Shown: positions 9,308 through 13,546 of the stretch, piece by piece
How positions within the stretch are numbered: position 1 is the stretch's first letter
How the letters are laid out: each line of letters opens with the position of its first letter
Assembly: GCA_947649625.1 (NCBI GenBank)
Contig: CANSSJ010000012.1
Coordinates: 1-42,587, forward strand
Length of the DNA stretch: 42,587 bases
Reading direction: 5' to 3'
Source of the DNA: an uncultured Bacillota bacterium
GTDB taxonomy: Bacteria; Bacillota; Clostridia; Oscillospirales; Oscillospiraceae
Made by a program: the position numbers and the translations under genes
The notes under the pieces: generated by a model
Database searches by the model: none
What the model saw: the letters and a program-made list of their open reading frames with translations, nothing else
What the model was told of the DNA's origin: nothing

Positions 9308-10102
9308 TCAATAATTCTCTGAGGTAAACTCCACCGCGCCCTCCTCCCGGGTGCAGGTGACAGTGCAGTCCGACTCGGTGCCCGCCAGCAGCAGACGGCG
9401 GGCCTTGCACAGCTCCAACACCGCCAGGAAGGTGGCCACCACCTCCGAGCGGCTGCGGCTGCCCTTAAACAGGGCCCGGAACCGGGTGACACCGAAGGAG
9501 ATCAGCCGCCTGATGATCTCCCCCGCCTTGTCGGCCACGGGGTAGGGCTCCCGGCCCACGATGCCCTGGAAGGCGGACACCGGCGGGGGCAGCTTGTTGT
9601 CCAGCCTGCCCAGCACGTCGGTCATGGCCCTGAGCAGGTCGCTCCTGTCGTGGACATAGCGGTAGATTTTATCGGGCTGGACCGCCTCGGGCACTTTGGT
9701 CAGGTAGTCCTGGCCAATCTGATAGCGGCTGTCCAGGGCGGGTACCACCGCTTTGATTTTCAGGTAGTTTTCATTGCGCTGGTGGGCCTCCAGGGTGGCA
9801 ATGAGCTGTTCCATCTCGCTCATGGCCTCCTCGTCGTTGATGGACAGCAGCATCCGGGTCTTGATATACACCAGATGAGAGGCCATGGTCACAAAGTCGC
9901 TGGCCACCTCCAGGTCCAGTTCCTTCCGCTTGTTCATCCACTCCATGTACTGGTCCAGAATGAGGGAAATCTGGATGTCCTTGATCTCCAGCTTGTTCTT
10001 GCTCAGCAGGTGGAGAATCAGGTCCAGAGGGCCCACAAAATCCTCCATGTTCTCCTCTTTTGCCTTCACCACCCCTTCCAGGTGGTAAATGGGTGCCTCC
10101 AA
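9308..10102 (-). CDS. scpA: Segregation and condensation protein A (TTG start)
   Basis: ScpA is the kleisin that closes the SMC ring and binds ScpB. The 264-residue protein contains FVGPLDLILHLLSKNKLEI near the N-terminus (canonical EGPLDLLLHLI), LVYIKTRMLL, and a C-terminal winged-helix ending TFLAVLELCKARRL. The best start is TTG at 10102. GGGGAGG lies exactly 7 bases upstream, and the next in-frame ATG (about residue 19) would cut into the conserved region. A promoter lies about 30 bases ahead of this start. Upstream is the 409-base stretch with the candidate small-RNA locus. scpA, scpB, the DUF2953 gene, gerW and probably the carboxypeptidase gene form one transcription unit. Confidence 0.93.
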   Translation of the reverse strand: MEAPIYHLEGVVKAKEENMEDFVGPLDLILHLLSKNKLEIKDIQISLILDQYMEWMNKRKELDLEVASDFVTMASHLVYIKTRMLLSINDEEAMSEMEQLIATLEAHQRNENYLKIKAVVPALDSRYQIGQDYLTKVPEAVQPDKIYRYVHDRSDLLRAMTDVLGRLDNKLPPPVSAFQGIVGREPYPVADKAGEIIRRLISFGVTRFRALFKGSRSRSEVVATFLAVLELCKARRLLLAGTESDCTVTCTREEGAVEFTSENY

Positions 10103-10139
10103 GGGCCCACCTCCCCATTTTAGGATTATCTTTCCTGTT

Positions 10140-10168
10140 ATTATAACAGTTTGTCCAAGAAAAGACAA
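10140..10168 (-). promoter_or_regulatory. Predicted scpA operon promoter
   Basis: On the minus strand TTGTCT (10168-10163), a 17-base spacer and a perfect TATAAT (10145-10140) precede the scpA start by about 38 bases. The -10 sits inside the small palindrome CTGTTA TTA TAACAG (10135-10149). This gives scpA its own promoter, separate from the minus-strand promoter at 10472-10500. Confidence 0.75.
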
Positions 10169-10181
10169 GATAAAATCACAG

Positions 10182-10193
10182 GAACGTATGTTC
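10182..10193. promoter_or_regulatory. LexA/DinR-box-like palindrome
   Basis: GAACGTATGTTC matches the Firmicutes LexA core GAACNNNNGTTC. The flanking bases differ from the full CGAAC...GTTCG form at both ends. It lies 10 bases upstream of the plus-strand -35 box at 10204 and 13 bases upstream of the scpA -35 box, so it could affect either promoter. Single 8-base half-site matches occur by chance, so this is only suggestive. Confidence 0.4.
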
Positions 10194-10203
10194 TTCCAAA
10201 ATA

Positions 10204-10232
10204 TTGACATACTTCTCTGTTTCTGCTAAAAT
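10204..10232 (+). promoter_or_regulatory. Consensus promoter of the 27-residue peptide transcript
   Basis: TTGACA (10204-10209), 17 bases and TAAAAT (10227-10232): 11 of 12 consensus positions. Transcription would start near 10239 and run toward the shared terminator at 10379-10408. The leader has two competing pairings of ACACC (10293-10297): with GGTGT at 10256-10260, or with GGTGT at 10309-10313, which would cover the ribosome binding site. Confidence 0.8.
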
Positions 10233-10317
10233 CGTACTGGTTCCATTGAGAACCGGGTGTCGCAGTATTTGCTTCGTCTTTGGCGGTCAGCAACACCATC
10301 CGAAAGGGGGTGTGCCT

Positions 10318-10401
10318 ATGCCCCTTACCATTACCTGGCATTGGTTCGGTTTTACTTGGACCATCAGGGTAAAAAGGGACAACCGCCACCCTGCACGGTG
10401 A
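10318..10401 (+). CDS. 27-residue cationic aromatic peptide, candidate type I toxin-like
   Basis: The reading frame starts ATG at 10318 with AAAGGGGG 7 bases upstream and ends TGA at 10401. The peptide begins MPLTITWHW, has FGFTWTIRVKR in the middle and ends DNRHPAR: three tryptophans, two phenylalanines and a net positive charge of about +4, alternating hydrophobic and polar residues. I do not recognise a named family. The last six codons form one arm of the transcription terminator. It has its own consensus promoter, a structured leader of about 80 bases, and a convergent antisense transcript over its 3' end. These traits fit type I toxins, but the peptide has no obvious membrane-spanning helix, and a regulatory leader or other small-protein role is possible. 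Confidence 0.6.
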   Translation: MPLTITWHWFGFTWTIRVKRDNRHPAR

Positions 10402-10412
10402 CGGTTGTTTCT
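10371..10412. terminator. Bidirectional terminator shared by two convergent small transcripts
   Basis: ACAACCG (10379-10385) pairs with CGGTTGT (10402-10408) and CACC (10387-10390) with GGTG (10397-10400), leaving a 6-base loop and one mismatch. Toward the minus strand it is followed by five Us (10375-10371). Toward the plus strand it is followed by a shorter TTTCT. The stem overlaps the last codons of the 27-residue frame. Confidence 0.8.
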
Positions 10413-10465
10413 CTAAAATAACCCAATCCATAAAGGGCTGACCGCTTTACTGCGGCACCTTTTAT
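10371..10465 (-). ncRNA. Predicted ~95-nt antisense RNA opposite the peptide message
   Basis: From the promoter at 10500-10472, transcription would start near 10465 and end in the U-run at about 10371. It overlaps the 3' 40 bases of the plus-strand message, including the codons for the peptide's C-terminus. Its 5' part folds as CCGC AGTAAA GCGG. No start codon with a ribosome binding site was found in it. If it reads through, it could also act as an upstream leader of scpA, so an attenuator is the main alternative. Confidence 0.5.
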
Positions 10466-10471
10466 GCTTTC

Positions 10472-10500
10472 ATTTTACCACTCCGCCGCCGCCCTGTCAA
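10472..10500 (-). promoter_or_regulatory. Consensus minus-strand promoter facing the peptide gene
   Basis: TTGACA (10500-10495), 17 bases and TAAAAT (10477-10472) on the minus strand: the same two hexamers and spacing as the opposing promoter at 10204-10232. It lies just downstream of the engB stop codon, so it is not placed to drive engB. Confidence 0.8.
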
Positions 10501-10511
10501 GGTCGAGGCGG

Positions 10512-11105
10512 TCATTTTTCAATCCCCGCGAAGATGGCCGACAGCAGCTCTTCCCGGCCGGTGCCTTTCTCGGCGGAGAAGGGGATGAGCCGGTCCCCCT
10601 CCCCCAGCTCCAGGGTATCCCGGATGGCCTGGAAGTTGGGCTCCACCTCGCTCTTTTTCAGCTTATCCAGCTTGTTGGCCACGATAATCAGAGGACAGCC
10701 GGTATCCTTGAACCACCGGAACATGGTGCGGTCGTCGGCGGTAGGCTTGTGGCGAGAGTCCACGATCATCACCCCCAGGGTAAGCAGGTCGGGCCGGGCG
10801 AAGTAGTCCTCCATCAGCCTCCCCCAGCGGTCCCGCTCCGCCTTGGACACCTTGGCATAGCCGTAGCCCGGCAGGTCCACCAGATAGAAGGCCCCGTCAA
10901 TATCGAAGTAGTTCACATGGACGGTCTTTCCCGGGGCGGCCCCCACCCGGGCAAAGTTTTTCCGGTTGAGGAGACGGTTAATGACCGAGGACTTGCCCAC
11001 GTTGGACCGCCCGGCGAAGGCCACCTGAGGCCGACCGTCCTGAATGAAGTTTTTCTGAGAGACGGCGGACAGCACAAACTCCGCCTTTTGCAGATTGACA
11101 GCCAT
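10512..11105 (-). CDS. engB: Ribosome biogenesis GTP-binding protein EngB (YsxC/YihA)
   Basis: EngB is an essential GTPase for late assembly of the 50S subunit. The 197-residue protein has G1 GRSNVGKSS (32-40), a G2 threonine in GKTVHVNYF, G3 DLPGYG (77-82), G4 NKLDK and a G5-like FSAEKGTG. It directly follows lon (11 bases), the usual lonA-ysxC order in Firmicutes. Its 3' side borders the minus-strand promoter of the candidate antisense RNA. Confidence 0.97.
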   Translation of the reverse strand: MAVNLQKAEFVLSAVSQKNFIQDGRPQVAFAGRSNVGKSSVINRLLNRKNFARVGAAPGKTVHVNYFDIDGAFYLVDLPGYGYAKVSKAERDRWGRLMEDYFARPDLLTLGVMIVDSRHKPTADDRTMFRWFKDTGCPLIIVANKLDKLKKSEVEPNFQAIRDTLELGEGDRLIPFSAEKGTGREELLSAIFAGIEK

Positions 11106-11116
11106 TGCAGGCCTCC

Positions 11117-13546
11117 TTATTGGCTCATACGGGAACCGCTCTCCCCCTGGGGCACGGGAGGCAGCTCGGGCAGGGCCCCGCTCTTTCTGGGCCGGCCCCG
11201 CCTGCGGGGGGCGGGAACTTCCAGCGGCCGGTTCAGGGCCTGGGTCAGCACCTGATCCGCCCGCTCCACCAGGATGAACTGGAGGGCCTTGCGCACCGTC
11301 TGGTCGATCTCTTCCAAATCTTTGGCGTTGTCAGCGGGGATGATAACTGTTTTAATGCCGTTGCGGAAGGCGGCCATGGTCTTTTCCTTCAAGCCTCCGA
11401 TGGGCAGCACCCGTCCCCGGAGAGTGACCTCCCCGGTCATGGCGAGTCCCCGGCGCACGGAGACGCCAGTGAGGGCGGACACCATGGCGGTGGCGATGGC
11501 GATGCCGGCGGAGGGGCCGTCCTTGGGCACCGCCCCCTCCGGGAAGTGGACGTGAATGTCCTTCTCCTTGTAGAAGTCGGCGGGGAGGTTCAGCCGGCCG
11601 GCCTGGCTGCGGATGAAGCTGAGGGCGGCGTGGGCCGACTCCTTCATCACGTCCCCCAGGTTGCCGGTGAGCTCCACCTTGCCGGAGCCGGGGACCACGT
11701 TGACCTCCACCTCCAACAGCTCGCCCCCCACGGAGGTCCAGGCCAGGCCGTTGACCACGCCCACACGCTCCTCCAGAGCCTGGCGCTCGGGGTGATAACG
11801 GGGCACGCCCAGATACTCCTCCAGGTCCTTTTCTGTAATGCGGATAGACTTTACATTCTCTGACACCACCTTCATTGCCGCCTTGCGGCAGATGGCGGCC
11901 AGCCGGCGCTCCAGCACACGGACCCCGGATTCCCGGGTGTAGGCAGCGATGATCTCCCGCAGGGCGCCGTCGGACACCTTCAGCTGCTGCCTGGACAGCC
12001 CGTGGCGCTTGCTCTCCTTGGGCAGCAGGTGCTTTTTGGCGATCTGCACCTTCTCCTCGTCGGTGTAGCTGGACAGCTCGATCACTTCCATCCGGTCCAG
12101 CAGGGGCCGGGGGATGGTGTCAGTGGTGTTGGCGGTGGTGATAAACATGACCTGGGACAGGTCGAAGGGAATTTCCAAAAAGTTGTCCCGGAAGGTGGAA
12201 TTCTGCTCTCCGTCCAGCACCTCCAGCAGGGCGGAGGCCGGGTCTCCCCGGTGGTCGCGGCCCAGCTTGTCGATCTCGTCCAGCAGGATGAGAGGGTTGC
12301 AGCTCTGGGCCTGATTGATGGCGGAGATGATCCGGCCGGGCATGGCCCCCACATAGGTCTTGCGGTGACCGCGAATTTCCGCCTCGTCGCTGACGCCCCC
12401 CAGAGATATCCGGGCCAGCTTCCGGTTCATGGCCCGGGCCATGGACATGGCGATGGAGGTCTTGCCCACCCCCGGCGGGCCCACCAGACAGACGATCTGC
12501 CCCTTCAATTTGGGGGCCAGCTGGCGGACAGCCACAAACTCCAGCACACGCTTTTTCACTTTGTCCAGGCCGAAATGGTCCTGGTCCAGCACCTTCCGGA
12601 CGGCGGAGACGTTGATTTTCTCCTTGGTCGTCCTGCCCCAGGGCAGCTCCAGGCAGGTATCCAGGTAGTTGCGCAGAACGGTGCCCTCGGAGGAGCTGTA
12701 GGACTGCTTGGCCAGACGGCTCAGCTCTTTGTTCAGCTTCTCCCGCACCGGGTCGGGGAGCTTGGACTTGGCGATCTTTTCCCGATACTCCTCGATCTCG
12801 TCGGCCTCCTCCCCCAGCTCGGACTGGATGGCCTTCATCTGCTCCCGCAGGTAGTAGTCCCGCTGGTTCTCGTTCATCTGTTCCCGGGCCCGCTCCTGAA
12901 TCTCCTGGTCCAGGGTAAGGATCTCCACCTCCCGCTCCAGCAGGCGGTACAGCTTCTCCAGCCTCCTGACAGGGCGCAGCTCCTCCAGGATGGACTGCTT
13001 GTCGCTGTTGCGCATGGGGATGTTCTGGGCAATATAGTCGGCGATATGGCCTGGTTCCTGGCTGGCCAGTATATGCACGATCAGGTCGGGAGACAGCTTG
13101 GGAGACAACTCGGCATAGTTCTGAAACAATTCATAGGCGGCCCGCATCAGGGCCTCCGTCCGGGCGCTCCCCCGCGCGGGGGACTCCCGAATCTCCCGCA
13201 CCTCCGCCTCCAGATAGGGTTCGGCGCGCAGCATCTGGAGCAGGCTGCCCCGGGCCGCGCCCTCCACCATCACCCGCACGTTATCCCCCGGCATCCGGAG
13301 GATCTGACGGATATTGGAGATGGTGCCCACCTGGTACAGGTCGTCCGGCCCAGGCTCCTCCGCCCCAATGTCCTTCTGCCCCACCAGGAACACCGGGCTG
13401 CCGGCAGTCATGGCCGCCTCCAGCGCCCGCACGGACGCCTCCCGGGCCACCTCAAAATGGATCAGCACGTTGGGAAACACCGTCAGTCCCCGCAGGGCGA
13501 TGACAGGCATGGTAGTAGTGTGGAGGATATCCCATTCTTTCGACAT
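11117..13546 (-). CDS. lon: ATP-dependent protease Lon (endopeptidase La)
   Basis: Lon is a cytoplasmic AAA+ protease that degrades misfolded and regulatory proteins. The 809-residue protein has the N-terminal substrate domain (about 10-200), a coiled-coil region, Walker A GPPGVGKTS (356-364), Walker B LILLDEIDK, and the Ser-Lys protease domain with KDGPSAG (Ser679) and GGLKEK (Lys722), spaced as in E. coli Lon. The tail after about residue 780 is basic and proline-rich (PRRRGRPRKSG) and is not part of the conserved fold; it has an AT-hook-like GRPRK. Between lon and clpX are two hairpins, so lon may have its own transcript. No CIRCE element was seen upstream. Confidence 0.97.
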   Translation of the reverse strand: MSKEWDILHTTTMPVIALRGLTVFPNVLIHFEVAREASVRALEAAMTAGSPVFLVGQKDIGAEEPGPDDLYQVGTISNIRQILRMPGDNVRVMVEGAARGSLLQMLRAEPYLEAEVREIRESPARGSARTEALMRAAYELFQNYAELSPKLSPDLIVHILASQEPGHIADYIAQNIPMRNSDKQSILEELRPVRRLEKLYRLLEREVEILTLDQEIQERAREQMNENQRDYYLREQMKAIQSELGEEADEIEEYREKIAKSKLPDPVREKLNKELSRLAKQSYSSSEGTVLRNYLDTCLELPWGRTTKEKINVSAVRKVLDQDHFGLDKVKKRVLEFVAVRQLAPKLKGQIVCLVGPPGVGKTSIAMSMARAMNRKLARISLGGVSDEAEIRGHRKTYVGAMPGRIISAINQAQSCNPLILLDEIDKLGRDHRGDPASALLEVLDGEQNSTFRDNFLEIPFDLSQVMFITTANTTDTIPRPLLDRMEVIELSSYTDEEKVQIAKKHLLPKESKRHGLSRQQLKVSDGALREIIAAYTRESGVRVLERRLAAICRKAAMKVVSENVKSIRITEKDLEEYLGVPRYHPERQALEERVGVVNGLAWTSVGGELLEVEVNVVPGSGKVELTGNLGDVMKESAHAALSFIRSQAGRLNLPADFYKEKDIHVHFPEGAVPKDGPSAGIAIATAMVSALTGVSVRRGLAMTGEVTLRGRVLPIGGLKEKTMAAFRNGIKTVIIPADNAKDLEEIDQTVRKALQFILVERADQVLTQALNRPLEVPAPRRRGRPRKSGALPELPPVPQGESGSRMSQ

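Follow-up and report, generated by a model that had tools for sequence, protein, structure and literature searches.

The locus at 10204-10500 of the window (the whole 42,587-nt stretch of DNA that was analysed, from an uncultured bacterium of the Oscillospiraceae) probably functions as a type I toxin-antitoxin module, one of an undescribed family, a reading to which we give a probability of about 0.7. The locus is a conserved element of ~300 nt, whose terminal inverted repeats take in both of its promoters and whose neighbours in the window are scpA and engB. On one strand it carries a small protein-coding gene under selection, and on the other a predicted antisense gene that overlaps the presumed toxin mRNA and whose promoter and terminator are conserved across copies. 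The unusual features of this probable type I variant are the beta pattern of the peptide and the replaceable spacer. A type I arrangement had been proposed in a preliminary description of the same DNA; selection on the peptide, its coupling to the antisense promoter, solitary antisense halves and the several, sometimes tandem, copies per genome speak for that proposal, whereas two of its parts, a shared terminator and an overlap of 40 nt, found no support.

A promoter scan of 9500-11500 found three sites, compared with 0.5 ± 0.7 in shuffled sequences. Two of them are TTGACA-17-TAAAAT promoters that face each other, one per strand (10204-10232 on the + strand and 10500-10472 on the - strand), with 11 of 12 matches each; the third, TTGTCT-17-TATAAT at 10168-10140 on the - strand, lies upstream of scpA. 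The facing promoters with identical hexamers and a nearer promoter of scpA's own are both present as first described, as is a 27-codon frame; this frame occupies 10318-10401 (27 codons plus TGA) and is preceded by AAAGGGGGTG. The element is made up of the following parts.

10204..10232, + strand: sense (toxin mRNA) promoter TTGACA-17-TAAAAT (scan; family counts)
10239..10254, + strand: 5'-terminal hairpin of the predicted mRNA (RNA fold)
10255..10267, + strand: P1, 5' strand of the long-range helix (RNA fold; covariation)
10282..10291, + strand: P2, 5' strand of the long-range helix (RNA fold; covariation)
10293..10313, + strand: hairpin predicted to pair the Shine-Dalgarno (SD) sequence (RNA fold; family local folds)
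10318..10401, + strand: presumed toxin, 27-codon ORF MPLTITWHWFGFTWTIRVKRDNRHPAR (homologues; dN/dS 0.15-0.19)
10371..10375, - strand: U-run of the antisense terminator, opposite the Val-Lys-Arg codons (sequence; Lys codon bias)
10379..10408, - strand: central hairpin, the predicted antisense terminator, overlapping the ORF end (scan, family, fold)
10409..10434, either strand: hypervariable spacer, presumed recognition segment of both RNAs (family comparison)
10437..10446, + strand: P2', 3' strand of the long-range helix (RNA fold; covariation)
10448..10460, + strand: P1', 3' strand of the long-range helix, followed by TTT (sequence, fold, covariation)
10371..10465, - strand: predicted antisense RNA, ~95 nt (promoter and terminator positions; fold z -4.4)
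10472..10500, - strand: antisense promoter TTGACA-17-TAAAAT (scan; family counts)

Scanning 263 loci with a profile yielded 248 unique matches, 209 of them at 20 bits or more; the hairpin was present in 205 of the 209 (L068, L097, L112 and L116 were dropped), and 174 complete, non-redundant copies form the working set. The sense promoter reached at least 10/12 in 104 of these 174 copies (shuffles, 0/174) and the antisense promoter in 163 (shuffles, 1/174), suggesting that the antisense promoter is the stronger of the two across the family. Homologues of the 27-residue frame were found in relatives, and the opposing promoter is conserved beside nearly all of them.

Central hairpin and folding of the predicted RNAs

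The central hairpin (12 bp, 10379-10408) contains the ORF stop codon within its 3' arm. It had been described as one shared bidirectional terminator, at which the two RNAs would overlap by about 40 bases. In such an arrangement, which follows the design of txpA/RatA and bsrG/SR4, two short convergent RNAs would end at the same hairpin with a 3' overlap of ~40 nt, and the mRNA would make no use of the flanking inverted repeat. The hairpin can be folded from either strand, and on the + strand a T-run of at least 4 follows within 14 nt in 29 of the 174 copies, with TTTCTCT in this place in the window. In the terminator scan, however, the hairpin was terminator-like on the - strand only, and such T-runs follow it on that strand in 107 of the 174 copies. 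In addition, a conserved C.A mismatch of the sense strand, which corresponds to a G.U pair in the antisense strand, was seen in 67 of the 69 copies found through the peptide alone, and sense-strand G.U pairs in the hairpin were seen in none of the 69. Together with a right flank that lies in a helix whose wobble pairs favour the sense strand (see below), these results led to the rejection of the two-way terminator, and the arrangement built on it is unlikely.

The Lys codons under the antisense U-run are AAA in 132 cases and AAG in 59, as against 21 and 101 for the other Lys codons. The wobble bias, the U-run and the AAA preference suggest that the main use of this single DNA palindrome is to terminate the antisense RNA, and that the last codons of the ORF are tuned to this terminator. 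Since the hairpin is terminator-like on the - strand and not in both directions, the two predicted RNAs probably overlap by ~95 nt (10371-10465) rather than by ~40.

For the flanks, the long-range pairing P1/P2 was stronger with the copy's own partner than with swapped partners in 160 of the 174 copies (-54.8 vs -43.2 kcal/mol). By symmetric alignment, the own partner was the better one in 154/173 copies, with 5 ties, compared with 63/173 for a leader-versus-ORF control. All four Watson-Crick pairs occur at many positions of P1/P2. The G.U pairs number 315 when counted on the sense strand and 102 on the antisense strand (144 anchored copies, 30 left out); they remain at 244 vs 102 when the commonest position is excluded, the counts in the earlier symmetric-alignment set were 271 vs 135, and a control gave 71 vs 69. 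These comparisons indicate that the flanks form a predicted long helix that covaries and favours the sense strand. From the sense-strand G.U bias, the outer repeats would serve the sense RNA, and a right flank that takes part in a sense-favouring helix implies that the sense RNA contains it; the mRNA thus probably reads past the central hairpin and folds 5'-to-3'.

In the window copy, the symmetric alignment of leader and right flank falls below the cut-off that defines a 146-copy set, and a 14-nt bulge splits P1 from P2; the RNA fold shows both. The window sense RNA taken to 10464 folds at -95.3 kcal/mol (z -6.2), whereas its z is -2.3 when it is cut at 10412; the predicted antisense RNA folds at z -4.4. 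An SD sequence is present in 164 of the 174 copies, and at least 4 of its 6 bases are paired locally in 160 of these 164. The local fold around it beats shuffled sequences in 159/174 copies, although only 67 have a perfect 5-bp stem. Many leaders, L076, L078 and L136 among them, also have a strong hairpin at the extreme 5' end without an antisense counterpart, and hairpins in this position are typical of stable mRNAs.

Peptide and family assignment

The peptides are mostly 20-32 residues long (27 in the window). Among the 102 copies with an alignable 20-codon core, dN/dS was 0.15 over 40 independent pairs and 0.19 over 400 pairs, indicating that the predicted peptide is under strong purifying selection. 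On either side of a turn-like Gly or aromatic pair at the centre, the sequence alternates between hydrophobic and polar residues. In the 155 peptides that fit the core pattern (19 of the 174 were left out), the beta moment exceeded the helix moment in all 155, compared with 66/155 for shuffled peptides; their mean charge is +4.5 and their longest apolar run is 6. Judged by residue pattern, these peptides are cationic and beta-patterned and not transmembrane-helical, and the hydrophobic transmembrane alpha-helix of membrane type I toxins is not seen in them. The beta pattern counts against a membrane type I toxin, since a review describes a helical transmembrane domain in all such toxins (PMC8309996).

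The peptide could instead be antisense-controlled without being a self-toxin, acting as a secreted or membrane-active agent against competitors or as a small regulator, the antisense RNA then damping its expression. Beta-hairpin antimicrobial peptides have the cationic amphipathic beta pattern that was seen in all 155 peptides (shuffles, 66/155), and nothing in the sequence requires a signal peptide. However, the near-universal antisense promoter, the solitary antisense halves, the locked SD and the spacer turnover suit an addiction module better, and no export gene was seen at the window locus, where the neighbours are scpA and engB. This alternative is accordingly given a low probability, about one chance in ten.

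Neither the window peptide nor 46 family members gave any match over the curated cut-offs of Pfam and NCBIfam, which hold models of TxpA/BsrG, Fst/Ldr and Hol-Tox; none of these models was matched. PADLOC matched 0 of the 46 members, and Rfam had no match in the window at the gathering score, a further search giving two chance-level matches (E 2.1 and 3.9). No chain among solved structures was related at E 10, none of the papers searched contained any of six family peptide words, and searches by topic showed no description of the family among the matches listed. The earlier suggestion that this could be a new family has thus gained ground, and these database and literature searches support the view that the peptide and the RNA design make up an undescribed family.

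Membership in YrzI (TIGR02413 / PF09501) was considered and rejected: 4 of the 46 members matched, with a best E of 0.01 and 16 bits against a cut-off of 47.05, and the YrzI family was not found in the own genome at E 1. The yrzI genes occur in tandem arrays. YrzI is longer (46 positions) and its likeness to the peptides is sub-threshold, and tandem arrays are common to both. A phage family with function unknown, phrog_4193 (PHROGs), matched 8/46 members with a best E of 0.0033; the sub-threshold likeness of some peptides to YrzI and phrog_4193 could be a distant link to Bacillus. In L155, L182 and L183, the leader, spacer and right flank are at least 0.91 identical, and the L155 ORF is only 0.70-0.74 identical to the others, as if the ORF had been exchanged.

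Element halves, spacer and proposed mechanism

An antisense promoter of at least 10/12 accompanies 163 of 168 intact peptides and 4 of 6 non-intact ones; five intact peptides are without a strong antisense promoter. A profile of the right half gave 263 matches with room upstream, 50 of which have no left half; 20 of these solitary right halves are strong and nearly full length (at least 59.7 bits), and 30 are weak, partial or chance matches. A profile of the left half gave 209 matches with room, of which two, L116 and L190, have no right half, and that of L190 is probably just displaced. Among the 20 solitary antisense halves, 14 were seen to have an antisense promoter of at least 10/12, whereas that of L008 reaches 8/12. 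Because many right halves were found through the hairpin itself, the two half counts differ in ascertainment and the two loss rates are not strictly comparable; as they stand, they suggest that antisense halves persist alone and toxin halves hardly do, which is the genetic logic of type I toxin-antitoxin systems. It is a feature of this class that the toxin gene is not kept without the antitoxin gene, and such is the pattern here (163/168; 2/209). A broken frame with both promoters and the terminator retained, which the preliminary description had named as evidence to the contrary, occurs in only 3 of the 174 copies; the commoner decay removes the whole sense half, promoter included, and leaves the antisense half. 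In L173 and L177, solitary right halves adjoin complete elements, like extra antitoxin genes.

The scpA-engB site was compared in 30 loci. A complete element is present in the window (L264), L271, L273 and L277, the last with two tandem copies, the first of which has no start codon; the right half alone is present in L266 and L268; and the element is absent, with a gap of 82-109 nt, in L265, L267, L279, L285 and L292. The scpA of L265 is 97% identical to that of the window. Relatives without the element keep scpA and engB, with a plain terminator between them. In the gap of L269 there is a decayed remnant, with a ACAACCGCCACC-like hairpin and part of the right flank, and in those of L273, L276 and L284 another small gene lies behind a TTGACA-type promoter, ribbon-helix-helix-like by eye. 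The site is seemingly an insertion hotspot.

These observations bear on a further possibility, a MITE-like mobile element, or a structured element of DNA or RNA, for which the inverted repeats and the antisense RNA would be what counts and the peptide a by-product. The terminal inverted repeats that include the promoters, the presence and absence of the element at one scpA-engB site in near relatives, and the tandem and scattered copies would all fit it. However, the repeats covary instead of staying fixed, the peptide is under strong purifying selection, and no target duplication was noticed by eye at the filled and empty scpA-engB sites, making this possibility very improbable.

The spacer between the central hairpin and P2' is about 23-44 nt long and 64% A+T, as measured in the 146 of 205 copies with a clear helix. 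In nine same-contig pairs, the spacers are 0.41-0.75 identical (random pairs, 0.54) and the ORFs 0.93-1.0; in six of the nine, the leader and the right flank are also 0.89-1.0 identical. Tandem arrays carry different spacers. For L195 and L049, the ORF identity is 1.00, that of the leader 0.93, of the right flank 1.0 and of the spacer 0.65. Unchanged synonymous sites beside a changed spacer exclude neutral drift and point to replacement or diversifying selection. Identical spacers are found in some pairs from different assemblies, and one exception, L098 and L114, has the same spacer on two contigs of one genome. Of 77 pairs whose ORF, leader and right flank were each 0.8 identical or more, none of the 7 from the same genome reached a spacer identity of 0.83, as against 10 of the 70 from different genomes; the contrast of medians (0.57 vs 0.65; 7 and 70 pairs) gave p 0.08 and is not significant, so that a barcode reading rests on the rate of turnover. 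These results suggest that the spacer, which is common to both predicted RNAs, turns over much more quickly than the sequence around it, as a specificity barcode would. In a set preselected for a clear helix, which formed in 146/146, no other part of either predicted RNA is less paired: 0.53 of the spacer is unpaired in each. The window spacer (query 10413-10435) has a single site in the own genome at up to 3 mismatches.

In the type I reading, the sense RNA would start at ~10239, pass through the central hairpin and end near 10463. In the full-length mRNA, the leader would pair with the mRNA's own 3' end (P1/P2) and the SD would be locked in its hairpin, so that the mRNA would be stored silent. 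The stronger opposing promoter would give rise to the ~95-nt antisense RNA, which would end in the central hairpin and cover the 3' half and the last codons of the mRNA. The single-stranded spacer would be the likely first contact, making the antisense RNA specific to its own mRNA, and pairing of the two would lead to loss of the mRNA. Once the antisense RNA is gone, the translated peptide would harm the cell, probably at the membrane. Since the 5' part of the antisense RNA has nearly the sequence of the mRNA leader, it should displace the leader on binding to the mRNA 3' end. Taken alone, this release could make the message accessible instead of silent; degradation of the duplex would be expected to outweigh it.

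A more far-reaching version is tentative, and we hold it slightly less probable than its negation: a widespread family in gut Clostridia, with beta-hairpin-like cationic toxins, that is addictive because its barcode spacer keeps duplicates from covering for one another, and in which one wobble pair per helix sets the strand. If true, an overlooked peptide gene of the addiction type, shorter than annotation usually accepts, would be present in several copies in many gut Clostridia, cultured and uncultured, and a non-helical class would join the membrane-type toxins. Tandem copies alike except in one spacer of ~25-35 nt would then be a natural experiment on antisense RNA specificity. The asymmetric wobble pairs offer a testable rule, by which one DNA palindrome gives different folds to the overlapping RNAs of its two strands.

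Known systems and distribution

In par (Fst/RNAII, pAD1), convergent RNAs are arranged around a common hairpin, and direct repeats make both RNAs complementary. The repeats here are inverted, in contrast to those of par, so both predicted RNAs would begin with nearly identical sequence. The txpA/RatA and bsrG/SR4 systems of Bacillus subtilis consist of convergent toxin and antisense genes that overlap at the toxin 3' end; we know of no covarying long-range helix or replaceable spacer in them. Their convergent 3'-overlap design is like that predicted for the present element, whereas their toxins are larger and have a transmembrane domain (PMC6563280). The type I modules of Clostridioides difficile (CD2517.1-RCd8 and others) have convergent overlapping genes, multiple and prophage-borne copies and mostly cognate-only antitoxins (PMC6563280). 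Their bacteria belong to the same class as the present one; their toxins are described as having 34-59 residues, an N-terminal transmembrane stretch and a Lys-rich end (PMC6563280), whereas the peptides here have mostly 20-32 residues and a longest apolar run of 6.

The aapA/IsoA modules of Helicobacter pylori are described as having a cationic peptide of ~30 residues that ends in Lys-Arg, SD-sequestering hairpins, a cis-antisense RNA of ~80 nt and module-specific antitoxins (PMC6733600, PMC10537873). Translation there is confined to a 3'-truncated form, the full-length mRNA being kept silent by long-distance pairing of its 5' and 3' parts (PMC6733600). The short cationic peptide with its Lys-Arg end, the 5'-3' pairing, the SD hairpins, the short antisense RNA and the module-specific antitoxin have counterparts here, of which the pairing is predicted and covarying and the antisense RNA and its specificity are predicted. 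The systems differ in that IsoA, which is antisense to the small ORF itself, covers the SD region, whereas the antisense RNA here would cover the 3' half of the mRNA, and in that AapA1 is helical by NMR (PMC8309996), whereas the present peptide is beta-patterned. Homology to AapA1, suggested by eye, was rejected at -1.5 bits, a score reached by 1181 of 2000 shuffles, so that no sequence relation to AapA1 is seen. By its sequence, the element lies outside every known family that was compared.

The own genome contains three DNA-similar places, the window included. A peptide search over 60 relatives gave matches in 24 at a loose E of 10. The profile for wider searches was an alignment of 27 peptides; matches were found in 26 of 64 same-genus genomes (E 0.01), with up to 15 in one genome, and at order level in 22 of 394 genomes (E 0.001, own included), in 15 of 168 genera and five families. 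At phylum level, 5 of 398 genomes matched (E 0.0001, own included; 46-row alignment). The copies are several per genome, scattered and sometimes tandem. A search by hairpin pattern matched at least 119 stretches in genome contigs and 23 viral contigs. The titles among the matches listed include Lawsonibacter, Oscillibacter, Gemmiger, Evtepia, Dysosmobacter, Pseudoflavonifractor and Lachnospiraceae assemblies; the hairpin without the element appears in unrelated organisms (Pelagicoccus, Marinospirillum, Anaerolineae, Verrucomicrobiae and Nitrospirae). Such recurrence with covariation in many predicted copies indicates more than chance. The place of the element, at the meeting ends of two housekeeping genes and where relatives carry a plain terminator, might suggest chance or a leader or terminator region of scpA or engB. 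Copies at unrelated places of the own genome, scpA's own promoter and the relatives that retain scpA and engB without the element speak against this, making it extremely improbable; the chance reading is refuted, and the scpA leader was rejected.

By scan, the family peptide is present in 17 of the 23 viral contigs, and L242, L245 and L255 apparently have chance hairpins. L259 carries a terminase and a portal gene ~2 kb from the element, the sole such case among four contigs tested (PHROGs). Eight proteins neighbouring the element, from five contigs, gave one Pfam match (Big_3); no scpA relatives were found in the viral contigs, and phage records searched for the family gave weak matches or none. 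In the plasmid collection, 2-3 matching places lie in Vescimonas fastidiosa NZ_AP023416.1; its gene table, which is incomplete, lists no gene there. In L125:396-2206, five hairpins lie ~435-453 nt apart, corresponding to four peptide-bearing tandem copies after a solitary right half.
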